Shown one piece after another: positions 55,301 through 59,335 of a stretch of DNA of 64,000 nt. Position 1 is the stretch's first letter, and each line of letters opens with the position of its first letter. This stretch comes from Alicyclobacillus acidiphilus NBRC 100859 (GTDB taxonomy: Bacteria > Bacillota > Bacilli > Alicyclobacillales > Alicyclobacillaceae). The stretch is taken from the NCBI RefSeq assembly GCF_001544355.1, contig NZ_BCQI01000004.1, forward strand, positions 62,001-126,000, read 5' to 3'. Both the position numbers and the translations under genes were made by a program. A model generated the notes under the pieces. The model was not told the origin of the DNA, made no database searches, and saw only the letters and a list, made by a program, of their open reading frames with translations.

Positions 55301-56677
55301 TTACGACGTCAACGTTCCAGTTGTTGGAATACCCTTCGCCCACTCGTCAAACATCCGATCGACGTTGCCAGGCACAGGTCCCATTCCCCGCTCTGCCAAC
55401 AGCACCCGCCATTTGGCAAAGTCGTGGCCCGCGTTCAGGCCTCGCGTGACGGTCTTTTCCAACACGCGGTAGATCCGCATGGCACCGCCGCTCTTCAAAT
55501 CCGCGAACTGGGCGATTTGCGCTTCCAACGCGCTGTCCTGGGCGGTGACGACGATCTCAAAATTGGGTTGCACAATCAGCGACGCTTGACGATATTCCTG
55601 TTCGTCCGGCAGGTGTGCTTCGTCTTGTGTTAGTAATTCTTGACCGAGTTTTGTGATTTGAAACCATACTGGTTCCTTTTCATCGCCATCAAATCCCGTT
55701 CGAATAATCCCGAGGTGTTGTAACATGCGCAGAATCCGCTTCTCCCAGACATCCCACTCTGTGTCGTAGTAGAACGACTCGATGTGGCATTGGCAAATCT
55801 GGAAAACCGATTGACTGGACACCCACTCGTCCGCAACCATGCGGATAGTTTCAATCACTTCCCGCAGTCTTGGAATGGGTCTTCGGTAAATCCGCAGATA
55901 GTAGTGGTACATCCGTTGGAGCTGCACTTTCCTTGGCGTCGCGCGCCACTCGTCGACCGCCGATTGAGAAATCTGGAGCTGGCACTCCGGGGTCTCGATG
56001 AACATGTCGTGATCGAACCCGAAATCATACATCAACGCCAGTCGATCCGGATAGTCGTAAACCCGCCGCCCATACCCGAAGCGCCATTCGGGAAGTGCAA
56101 GGTCCTCCGCCACTTCGAATAATTCCATGAGCTGCTGCACGTTCTTCTTGTACATGGCGCCGCCAATCGTGAGCCTCACGTCATGGTTGGCGACATAGTT
56201 CAACAGCGTGTCCATGTCTTGTACCATGGCCATCTGTTCATCGTACTGCAGCAGCGGTTCGTCGTCCCTGCAGATTCGCTCCGCCATCCACTGGCTGCGG
56301 AAATGGGTTTGAATCGCCCGGCGAATCTCGTCTGGAATCACGTACACCAATCGCTTTTCGGCGATCGAGTTCGCATACAGCCATCCTTGTGAAAGCGCTT
56401 TATGGAGGGCGTTCTGATCCGTATCCCGCAGGAGCCCGCGCACCTCTTCCTTCGAAAACTTCGTCCGAGAGTGCAGGGCCAGGCGGCGAAACGACTCTCC
56501 CCAATCCTCGCACCATGCGCTGATGAGATGTTCCAATTGGTGGTTCGATCGCATGTTTAGAAGGATATTCTCCATGAGGTCGAGTTTAGAATACATCGCG
56601 CACTCGAGTTTTTGGTACACGGCGATATCCCGCAGCGTCTTGACCGACGCATGGTTCAAGCATTCAGCTAGTCTCAT
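55301..56677 (-). CDS. Helicase-associated protein with XPB/Ssl2-like N-terminal domain
   Basis: 458 residues, ATG start; the nearest AAGGAG is 14 nt upstream. Mostly helical, with winged-helix-like stretches near residues 50-120 and 300-350. The C-terminal SLIVQPNFEIVVTAQDS resembles the Helicase_C_3/XPB N-terminal family, which begins with such a LIVQPNF strand. No ATPase motifs. It follows the XPB-type helicase gene by 67 bp and is co-directional, so it probably forms a complex with it, as Bax1 does with archaeal XPB, though Bax1 is a nuclease and no nuclease motif is visible here. Confidence 0.75.
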   Translation of the reverse strand: MRLAECLNHASVKTLRDIAVYQKLECAMYSKLDLMENILLNMRSNHQLEHLISAWCEDWGESFRRLALHSRTKFSKEEVRGLLRDTDQNALHKALSQGWLYANSIAEKRLVYVIPDEIRRAIQTHFRSQWMAERICRDDEPLLQYDEQMAMVQDMDTLLNYVANHDVRLTIGGAMYKKNVQQLMELFEVAEDLALPEWRFGYGRRVYDYPDRLALMYDFGFDHDMFIETPECQLQISQSAVDEWRATPRKVQLQRMYHYYLRIYRRPIPRLREVIETIRMVADEWVSSQSVFQICQCHIESFYYDTEWDVWEKRILRMLQHLGIIRTGFDGDEKEPVWFQITKLGQELLTQDEAHLPDEQEYRQASLIVQPNFEIVVTAQDSALEAQIAQFADLKSGGAMRIYRVLEKTVTRGLNAGHDFAKWRVLLAERGMGPVPGNVDRMFDEWAKGIPTTGTLTS

Positions 56678-56744
56678 TGGAATTCATCATTCTCCTTCCC
56701 TTTACGACACTTGGTTTGTGTGCATCAATGTTGTGAATCCTTGC

Positions 56745-58196
56745 TCAATTCAAAGCGAGTTCTTCGTAAGCAACGATTTCGTATGTGTAACCTTGTTCAA
56801 TCAAATATTTTTGTCTGTGCAGGCCGTGCTGTTCTTCGATGCTGTTCGCTGTGACAAGTGAGTAGAACCGGGCAGGATCTCCGCTTGGCCGAAGAATCCT
56901 GCCGAGTCGCTGCGCCTCTTCCTGACGGGAACCAAACAGGCCCGACACCTGGATGGCGACATTGGCGTTCGGCAGATCCACCGCCACATTCGCTATCCGG
57001 GACAGCACGAGCATCGATATTTCGCCACCGCGGAATCGCCTGTAGGTTTCGAGGCGAGTTTGGTGCGGCGTGCTGCCGGACAGCATCGGCACCCCAAGCC
57101 GCGTCGCGATGGCTTGCAAAAACGCGGTGTAGTGTCCCATGATCAGAATTCGTTCACCAGCGTGTTTCGCGCAAAGCCATCGAATGACGTTGAACTTTCG
57201 CTCGTTGTCGGCTGCGATGCGGTGGCGATGCTTGGGCAGCGCCCGGGCGTACCTTTCTCGATCCAGATCGGACAATGGGATGCGAATCTCCTTGCAGACG
57301 ACTGGTGACAGGTGTCCCTGCTTGGACAAATCCACCGAGTGCGCCTGAAAGACGATGGGGCCGACCAGCGTGAGCACGTCCATGGCGCGGCCGTCTTCAC
57401 GCACAAGCGTGGCTGTCAAACCAAGTTTTCGTTTGGCCTCCAACTGGCTCGCCAGACGAAACAGTTTCGCCGGAAGCAGATGCACTTCGTCGTAAATGAC
57501 GAGGCCAAACGCGCCCTCCCGGTAACGGGCCAGATGATGAAATTCGCCGCTGCGCCGCCGGGCAGTCAGGCGTTGGTACGTCGTGATGGTAATCGGCTTG
57601 ATGGTGCGGCCGTTGTCGATCCCGACCGACGTCTCCGCAACGTCTGTCCACGTTCGGATGTGCGCCAGCCATTGTGCCGCCGCCGCTTCGTTCGGCACCA
57701 ATATCAGCGTCGGCAAGGCCAGTTTCGCGAGAATGGCTGTTCCGACCACGGTTTTGCCCGCTCCACACGGCAGTACGACGATTCCGCCGCCTTGGCTGGT
57801 GATGAAGGCGTCCACTGCGGCAACCTGATAATCTCGCAACGATCGTTGACTGGACAGGTGGATGTCGAGCGCGGGCAGCAGGTCCTGCCGCTGCGGCTTT
57901 GTGCCTGCTGCGGGGCAATTGGACATCGATTCGACGATCCGCCGCTGCAACGTCGCCGGAATCGGCCCTTGGGCGTAAGCGCGCAAGTAGGTCAGCACAT
58001 CTCGCGCGGACCTGCCGCGCATGGCAGCCGATCGCAACCGCAGCGGGGTCACTTCGTACACCGTGAACGGTTCCATGAACTGTATGGGCTGCGCGAAGTC
58101 GTCCAGACAGATGCTATCCTCGACGTGTCGCGACGAGGCCTTTGATTGACTGTGTTTCACGTACAACGTGCCGTCTGCCTGGGGATAGAGCAGCAT
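56745..58196 (-). CDS. XPB-type (Rad25-like) superfamily 2 DNA helicase
   Basis: 483 residues, ATG start. Motif I LPCGAGKT (142-149), motif II DEVH (236-239), motif III TAT (261-263), the XPB-specific RED at 266-268, and motif VI QEEAQRLGRILRP (425-437). An N-terminal damage-recognition-like region of about 110 residues precedes the core. Bacterial XPB proteins are 3'-5' translocases with suspected repair or transcription roles. The 5' leader is unusual: a run of 11 G (minus strand) ends 5 nt before the ATG and serves as or hides the ribosome binding site. Confidence 0.9.
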   Translation of the reverse strand: MLLYPQADGTLYVKHSQSKASSRHVEDSICLDDFAQPIQFMEPFTVYEVTPLRLRSAAMRGRSARDVLTYLRAYAQGPIPATLQRRIVESMSNCPAAGTKPQRQDLLPALDIHLSSQRSLRDYQVAAVDAFITSQGGGIVVLPCGAGKTVVGTAILAKLALPTLILVPNEAAAAQWLAHIRTWTDVAETSVGIDNGRTIKPITITTYQRLTARRRSGEFHHLARYREGAFGLVIYDEVHLLPAKLFRLASQLEAKRKLGLTATLVREDGRAMDVLTLVGPIVFQAHSVDLSKQGHLSPVVCKEIRIPLSDLDRERYARALPKHRHRIAADNERKFNVIRWLCAKHAGERILIMGHYTAFLQAIATRLGVPMLSGSTPHQTRLETYRRFRGGEISMLVLSRIANVAVDLPNANVAIQVSGLFGSRQEEAQRLGRILRPSGDPARFYSLVTANSIEEQHGLHRQKYLIEQGYTYEIVAYEELALN

Positions 58197-58201
58197 GGTA
58201 T

Positions 58202-58212
58202 CCCCCCCCCCC
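58202..58212. repeat. Homopolymer C11/G11 tract at the XPB ribosome binding site
   Basis: Eleven C on the plus strand (G on the coding strand), ending 5 nt before the helicase ATG. It is the longest G/C homopolymer noticed in the window. Slippage here would change the spacing or strength of the ribosome binding site, though miscounting in sequencing is also possible. Confidence 0.8.
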
Positions 58213-58410
58213 GTTCCGCCAGATGTAGCGCTGTCAATCGTCGATTGACGTCGATTGTAACGTGAGTGATTGAACGTGATCGATTCAGTGGCTCGATTGA
58301 GTATGGTCGATATGGAATAATTTCTCTAAAAAGCGGAACAGATATGCATGGAAGTGGAGAAAAGAGGCGAAACAAGAGCCTGGGAGACGGGGTTGGCGAA
58401 TGATGCGCTT

Positions 58411-58481
58411 GTCGGAAGGGTGTCGGAAGGGTGTCGGAAGGGTGTCGGAAGGGTGTCGGAAGGGTGTCGGAAGGGTGTCGG
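58411..58481. repeat. 11-bp tandem repeat, six copies plus a partial seventh
   Basis: GTCGGAAGGGT repeats six times without error (58411-58476) and runs into GTCGG, which joins the first copy of the 265-bp repeat. The last copy is shared with that larger unit, because AAGGGTGTCGG also starts its second copy. 58213-58410, between the G tract and this repeat, shows no gene. Confidence 0.95.
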
Positions 58482-58735
58482 CGAATAAGCGGCCGAGAGC
58501 CGCTTATTTGGCCCGAGCCGGCGGAATTTCAGTGAATAAGCGGCCGAGGGCCGCTTATGTTGGCTGACATGGGCTCGATCCGGCCGATTGGTGGCAAATA
58601 AGCGTCCGAGGGCCGCTTAAATTGCCCGATTTAGATCATTCGACAGGAATAAGCCTCTGAGGGCCGTTTATTTGGGACCGGGCCCAGCGCGCACCGGTCG
58701 CGGCCCGCCCCCACTGGTCCGGACGGCCGCGGATG
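58471..58735. repeat. 265-bp direct repeat, copy 1, with four internal palindromes
   Basis: Identical to 58781-59045 except for two adjacent bases (GA at 58659-58660 versus CT). Inside are four related palindromes starting at 58484, 58535, 58597 and 58648, so spaced 51, 62 and 51 bp. The consensus is AATAAGCGGCCGAGGGCCGCTTATT, a 10-bp stem with a 3-5 nt GAG loop; the third has one mismatch and the fourth several. Between them lie unlike sequences of about 25-38 bp. No open frame with a ribosome binding site crosses it. Confidence 0.95.
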
Positions 58736-58780
58736 TTGCTTGTACAGGCGCGCGAGCGGTGGCGATGGCGTGTTTGGCGC

Positions 58781-59045
58781 AAGGGTGTCGGCGAATAAGC
58801 GGCCGAGAGCCGCTTATTTGGCCCGAGCCGGCGGAATTTCAGTGAATAAGCGGCCGAGGGCCGCTTATGTTGGCTGACATGGGCTCGATCCGGCCGATTG
58901 GTGGCAAATAAGCGTCCGAGGGCCGCTTAAATTGCCCGATTTAGATCATTCGACAGGAATAAGCCTCTCTGGGCCGTTTATTTGGGACCGGGCCCAGCGC
59001 GCACCGGTCGCGGCCCGCCCCCACTGGTCCGGACGGCCGCGGATG
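58781..59045. repeat. 265-bp direct repeat, copy 2
   Basis: Second copy, offset by exactly 310 bp from the first and separated from it by 45 bp of unique sequence (58736-58780). Palindromes begin at 58794, 58845, 58907 and 58958. The near identity (2 differences in 265) means a recent duplication or ongoing homogenisation. Confidence 0.95.
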
Positions 59046-59335
59046 GGTGCCTTATGCCGTCGCGTGCGTTCATCCGCTTCAATGCCGTTTCAGGTCTGAC
59101 GCAATTCGACTTCGGCTAGTCCAAGAAAAAGACAAAAAAAGAAGGAATCCGCTTTCACGAATTCCCGTACAGGAGATTCTGCTAGGAGTGGAGAGAAATC
59201 AGAACATAACACCCTTCGAAGACAAAGATAAATCACTTTGGAAGCGCTGTCAATACCATTTTTACAGCCTTTTATCATTTATTTTCATAGACCCTTGGCC
59301 AGTGAATCTTCCCACGCCGCCAATCCCATGCCCAC
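59046..59335. other. Gene-free, locally AT-rich stretch between the repeats and tyrA
   Basis: About 290 bp. A purine-rich A-tract region near 59125-59145 and AT-rich 59220-59290 stand out against the GC-rich repeats. No ribosome binding site, recognisable protein or clear terminator hairpin with T-tract was found. With the repeats it makes about 1.1 kb of non-coding DNA from 58197 to 59335. Confidence 0.6.

Follow-up and report, generated by a model that had tools for sequence, protein, structure and literature searches.

The gene-free gap of ~1.1 kb between the XPB and TyrA genes of this genome (1139 bp; 58197-59335 of the 64-kb window, that is, of the whole stretch of DNA analysed) carries two copies of an element that consists of four palindromes at constant spacing, and this element was found in at least 118 distinct places on 49 contigs of the same genome. 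The latter number comes from a covariance model with which 150 of 1090 candidates were scored, and it may therefore be a lower bound. We lean towards reading the element as a dispersed, non-autonomous family of ~189 bp that would be copied by a putative dimeric binding protein, or by an enzyme that this protein recruits, and that would hinder DNA polymerases, giving rise to the short tandem repeats at its borders.

Three kinds of repetition had been described in this gap by the first-pass annotation, and each of them was borne out. The six exact 11-bp tandem copies correspond to an array of the unit TGTCGGAAGGG, detected by TRF with 6.5 copies and a 100% match. Between the two 265-bp units there are indeed two base differences, at 58659/58969 and 58660/58970, which lie mid-palindrome in what is the fourth dyad on the + strand, and eight 25-mer palindromes, four in each unit, are spaced at 51/62/51 bp. 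When the units are stretched to 271 bp there are four differences, and their start-to-start distance is 310 bp. Run at a score of 50 on the whole window, TRF reported the 11-bp array and the 265-bp unit pair as its only arrays. Each 265-bp unit holds one four-palindrome element of ~189 bp. The copies were oriented by the GTCGAAT mark beside the first dyad, which places them on the - strand; the covariance model scores both strands nearly alike. The features are as follows.

58410..58481, + strand: short tandem repeat that abuts element copy 1, with 6.5 copies of an 11-bp unit; the + strand is the G-rich one, and its 3' end points into copy 1
58471..58735, no strand: duplicated unit 1, 265 bp, which includes element copy 1 (sequence comparison)
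58484..58672, - strand: four-palindrome element copy 1, dyads 58484-58508, 58535-58559, 58597-58621 and 58648-58672, spaced 51/62/51
58638..58647, - strand: asymmetric linker mark of copy 1, CCTGTCGAAT; across the genome the consensus following the first dyad is TGTGTCGAATC
58781..59045, no strand: duplicated unit 2, 265 bp, which includes element copy 2; two differences from unit 1
58794..58982, - strand: four-palindrome element copy 2, dyads 58794-58818, 58845-58869, 58907-58931 and 58958-58982
58948..58957, - strand: asymmetric linker mark of copy 2, like that of copy 1 (consensus TGTGTCGAATC, here CCTGTCGAAT)

The same gap contains a run of 11 C (58202-58212) just upstream of the start of the XPB-like gene (58196); such runs can vary in length.

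The array is real, and when the palindrome and the unit were searched over this genome and its relatives, the idea of a single local site gave way to the at least 118 places mentioned above. The palindrome pattern AATAAGCGGCCNNRGGCCGCTTATT (up to 3 mismatches) had 268 forward-strand matches in this genome and its reversed control none, and a 310-base query gave 81 matches. The assembly comprises 165 contigs and is 99.96% complete, with several element copies near contig ends. Copies occur on average about once per 33 kb; contigs C2 (162 kb), C11 and C15 are without an element among the listed places. Alignment of the copies revealed a common unit of four palindromes at constant spacing. The first dyad is followed by an asymmetric linker of conserved sequence, TGTGTCGAATC, which fixes the orientation of the element. 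Each dyad is 25 bp long with the core AATAAGC-N11-GCTTATT, and the 51/62/51 spacing is near whole helical turns. Among 120 elements extracted with a scan that admitted only ±1 per spacing, 78 had exactly this spacing, 34 were one base off at one spacing, and 8 deviated at two or three. Removal of copies more than 85% identical left a non-redundant set of 100 elements, in which those with exact spacing have a mean pairwise identity of 65.7%. Two or more copies were present in 19 of the 72 clusters.

The geometry extends beyond this genome. At E <= 0.01 the covariance model matched 11 of the 41 genomes of the family, and geometry within one base was verified in nine genomes from five genera: this one and eight others (G012, G006, G015, G030, G019, G029, G033 and G039). 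These eight carriers have different inner sequences around a TAAG/CTTA core at the same geometry. One genome with a single weak, one-hairpin match (G004) and two whose palindrome arrays have another spacing (G028 and G031) were left out of this count. The arrays of the latter two (L074 and L084 in G028, L076 and L085 in G031) also have another inner sequence, and those of G028 carry GCGATCGC between the units. Some arrays in G019 and G029 are longer, with steps alternating between ~51 and ~62, and the copies of G029 are spread along one 5.2-Mb contig. A stricter pattern, in which TAAG-N13-CTTA recurs four times at 51/62/51 and up to 3 mismatches are allowed, matched 6 of the 59 genomes of the order (this one, G012, G006, G019, G015 and G030) and 1 of the 398 in a phylum sample, namely this one, with zero matches for the reversed control in both sets. 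Since this pattern misses G029, G033 and G039, the zero in the 397 other phylum-sample genomes speaks of that spacing only. Within the genus, 12 of the 14 other species had no match to it. No match to the element was found in viral contigs (exact patterns) or in plasmids and phages (blastn), and among the papers listed by literature searches none is on it, judged by title or abstract opening.

Comparison of closely related copies at different loci suggests how the family became dispersed. In three such pairs (96, 96 and 91% identical) the flanks are alike for only 0-26 bp. Two copies on contig C40, 6.3 kb apart and 95.8% identical, share 16 and 20 bp of flank; the C14/C102 pair (95.8%) shares 26 and 14 bp, and the C70/C63 pair (91%) is alike up to the outer palindromes and ~4 further bases. 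The C40 pair is the only interior one; the other two, each with one copy near a contig end, could be broken tandem arrays. Some pairs of 80-86% identity came out with long flank extensions by this measure, up to 400 bp, and inspection of one of these (L122/L134) showed flanks that are unlike and repeat-rich, which suggests that such values are chance or repeat matches. In six relatives without a verified element the TyrA-XPB order is kept and the aligned ends are ~250-290 bp apart, compared with 1139 bp here; the flank fetched from carriers G006 and G012 showed no TyrA. No target duplication was recognised in the pairs of this genome, where the flanks of the element are often tandem repeats, and neither a transposase nor a binding protein for the element was found. 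Judged by these sequences, the element looks like dispersed non-autonomous DNA that moves or has moved.

Next to the gap, positions 55301-58196 encode an XPB-type helicase (PF16203) followed by a partner with Helicase_C_3 and a weak, below cut-off match to Tfb2. Eight further species of the genus retain this pair, which stands next to TyrA in six of them. The proposal that the array is the target of this helicase system, with XPB as the cognate enzyme, finds no support: of the 15 genomes of the genus, 9 have an XPB homologue (E <= 1e-50), and in six of these 9 no element was verified. As far as the data show, the helicase pair is a neighbour by chance. A search for related loci with XPB returned one relative, in Paenibacillus humicus. 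Gene orientations around the element (++/+-/--/-+: 30/24/21/18 at 93 loci) showed no clear preference relative to control gaps (33/20/21/25 at 99 gaps) in a test based on crude ORF calls, with a long ORF overlapping 45 loci. A recurrent neighbour gene was also considered and rejected: among the largest ORF families, two have coordinates that place them over the element itself and another resembles ABC ATPases (two members inspected); the remaining families have six members or fewer. At one locus in each of two genera (L009 in G033 and L126 in this genome) the neighbours that flank the element are homologous on either side, and by a rough estimate about one such case is expected by chance.

The most regular feature of the surroundings is a set of short tandem repeats. 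For 108 elements the sequence extends 150 bp or more to each side, and in 81 of these TRF reports an array no farther than 60 bp from an edge. These arrays mostly start 0-10 bp from the element and have units of 6-24 bp with a mode of 9-11. Arrays were found in 115 of 216 120-bp tiles flanking the element versus 4 of 259 control tiles taken from intergenic DNA of this genome; at the same loci, 29 of 210 tiles 280-400 bp away contained one. The 11-bp array in the window is one case of this general pattern. Repeat units are locus-specific, and the left and right units were alike in 1 of 34 elements; insertion of the element into a pre-existing array was rejected, since the two units differ in the other 33. 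The arrays follow a strand rule: left arrays are G-rich (50/56) and right arrays C-rich (44/46), which means that on both sides the G-rich strand has its 3' end towards the element. In the non-redundant set this holds for 97 of 103 array-bearing flanks. Flanks with no detectable array are also G-skewed inward (57 versus 12, with 4 ties), and the skew is therefore not only a product of visible arrays; the bias fades over ~120 bp. Most copies that were looked at have short repeats beside them, which suggests that the cell may find these spots hard to copy accurately.

In the other carriers, arrays were present in 28 of 102 flanks, with the G-rich strand pointing inward in 24, outward in 3 and tied in 1. 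By base composition alone (80 bp) the rule is weaker in other genera (left 40/51, right 32/51), where the copies are not independent. Only 2 of 14 flanks carry arrays in G015 and G030; at some loci of these genomes arrays lie farther out, for example a 9-bp unit outside the end of a longer unit in L219/L229. G-quadruplex motifs on the inward strand occurred in 58 of 231 flanks, a count explained by composition because shuffling gave 50. A bias in side relative to replication direction, such as a fork model might predict, was borderline in the first 40 regions (19 versus 8, p 0.05) and did not recur in the next 20 (4 versus 5); the pooled counts of 23 versus 13 gave p 0.13, so that no such bias was shown.

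The element itself is unevenly conserved. In 19 close pairs, differences were found at 12 of 912 outer-arm positions versus 66 of 1692 linker positions (p 1.5e-4) and at 15 of 228 loop positions. The two arms of a dyad are moreover coupled: in the 100 non-redundant elements 3324 of 4400 cells were paired versus 3237 ± 13 after shuffling, a level that none of 300 shuffles reached. The excess at inner positions amounts to 66 cells, or 16.5 per site, compared with a mean of 3.9 and a maximum of 9.3 for cross-site combinations; partners slid by two columns also gave some excess, 16.2 and 10.2 cells versus the 66 in register. An earlier result with 29 elements (82.6% paired versus 82.2% shuffled, reached by 65 of 500 shuffles) had pointed to no arm coupling and is superseded by the larger set; that first test was probably underpowered. 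The preservation of spacing and arms noted at the outset is thus supported by the fixed geometry, the low substitution of outer arms and the coupling. Taken as a sequence pattern, this conservation fits sequence-specific recognition of the outer arms together with palindromy of the inner arms at the DNA level. The inner-arm palindromy may be kept by selection or by hairpin-templated correction, both of which are compatible with the data.

Low outer-arm substitution, fixed spacing and the spread of copies over the 5.2-Mb contig of G029 would also be expected if the copies were not mobile DNA but host sites, bound in arrays by a protein of nucleoid structure, partition or condensation and kept by selection for chromosome organisation. 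We consider this unlikely. The number of places in this genome, set beside the 12 of 14 other species of the genus with no pattern match, disfavours the partition or condensation site that had been suggested, and so do the shorter gaps that relatives have at this position, in which no element was verified, and the near-identical copies at different places. Phased multi-site protein targets such as resolvase res sites, iterons and parS/Noc sites share with the element several ~25-bp dyads near whole helical turns; the element differs from them in its more than 100 scattered copies and in the variable arrays that flank these.

A passenger role was weighed as well. In G015 and G030 the quartet lies inside a longer unit of ~450 bp with inverted ends of the type TTGAGACYGTCGATTCACT, and this form looks like a MITE; the quartet may have been captured by a transposon or, conversely, the other carriers may have lost the ends. 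That the whole family consists of MITEs, passengers of a conventional transposon whose transposase recognises terminal inverted repeats, is in our judgement quite unlikely, since the likeness of copies in this genome ends within the short distances given above without such ends. Five G015/G030 copies with both ends located showed no clear target duplication (four more had an assumed end), and no autonomous copy was recognised at 30 motif-bearing loci of these genomes (~1.5 kb on each side). At one locus of this set, L248, a further, third motif of weak score lies at a distance of 1.2 kb; the longest ORFs of this locus presumably encode a glycerol kinase and a RecJ-like protein. Like bacterial MITEs, the element is small, gene-free, apparently mobile and devoid of an enzyme of its own; as a difference, neither a pair of terminal inverted repeats nor a target duplication was seen to define its ends in the pairs of this genome that were looked at.

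The arm coupling at inner positions could likewise point to a structured RNA of four hairpins encoded in many copies, as the first-pass annotation had considered. The covariation of the stems was confirmed in so far as the arms are coupled; the G-U tolerance typical of RNA did not appear on either strand, because GT cells (191 versus 208 shuffled) and AC cells (213 versus 237) were both below expectation. RNAalifold gave no four-hairpin consensus, Rfam had no match at gathering score in 58197-59335, and promoter-like sites numbered 1 versus 0.7 expected. This explanation is therefore very unlikely.

The suggestion of a mobile, REP-like palindrome family held for the mobile family and failed for REP. 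Dispersed palindromes in tandem clusters, and PF01797 (Y1/RAYT) matches in carriers G015 (4) and G030 (3) with partial ones in G033 and G006 (1 each), are what a REP/BIME element moved by RAYT could leave. No PF01797 match occurred in this genome, the one with the largest number of listed copies, nor in carriers G029, G012, G019 and G039, and GTAG/CGTC tags at palindrome ends were not enriched (6 and 16 of 960 versus 15.4 and 22.7 shuffled), so that we regard movement by RAYT as highly improbable. The REP features given in PMC3733652 match the element in short palindromes, more than 100 copies, clustering at regular distances and a patchy occurrence between species. Set against the same features, the element is unlike REP/BIME/REPIN with RAYT (TnpA-REP) in having no PF01797 match in this genome and no tag enrichment, and also in its fixed quartet geometry, its divergent copies (mean 66% identity) and its border tandem repeats. 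The element is filed among dispersed palindromic repeats (REP/BIME, MITE-like in its working), here without REP tags, RAYT or MITE-type ends.

An assembly artefact or a decaying repeat, which the 165 contigs and the copies near contig ends might suggest, has a negligible chance of being right, given that relatives whose assemblies comprise 2 contigs (G029, G033 and G012) show this architecture too and that the arms are more conserved than the linkers. A CRISPR-like array does not fit: the linkers are related between copies, and no cas family was found among the three neighbours scanned.

The reading of the element as a dispersed, copied obstacle would work as follows. A putative dimeric protein would recognise the outer arms (TAAGC/GCTTA), and the dyad spacing would let several dimers act together. 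This protein, or an enzyme recruited by it, may copy the element to further sites and leave no target duplication that can be seen. Folded or covered by protein, the element would then hinder DNA polymerases entering from either side, which would pause at the first palindrome; this role as an obstacle is read from the sequence pattern. The nascent 3' end may fray, slip and re-prime, leaving short tandem repeats at each border, with units that give a G-rich nascent strand favoured. Longer slips may duplicate the element together with part of its flanks, a whole unit of ~280-380 bp, and the pair in the window could be such a case. In fission yeast, fork arrest is reported to cause slippage at short repeats (PMC3475662). 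The element would resemble replication fork barriers such as RTS1, where fork arrest has this consequence (PMC3475662), and it is unlike RTS1 in that its own barrier activity is deduced from sequence.

We tentatively raise a further proposal, which we hold to be rather less than probable, that these elements form a new class of bacterial selfish DNA. Such a class would combine a phased dyad quartet, a sequence specific to each genus, a constant geometry, a putative mover or binder, and telomere-like border repeats with the G-rich strand ending at the element on both sides, and each copy would be a built-in replication obstacle or break point. If this is true, a single genome would offer more than 100 natural replicates of one defined obstacle, many with a two-sided record of repeat growth, and the strand rule would be a constraint for any model of slippage or break repair. 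It would also mean a palindromic repeat family with no Y1/RAYT gene in the genome for which the most copies are listed, and the constant geometry should lead to the cognate protein.
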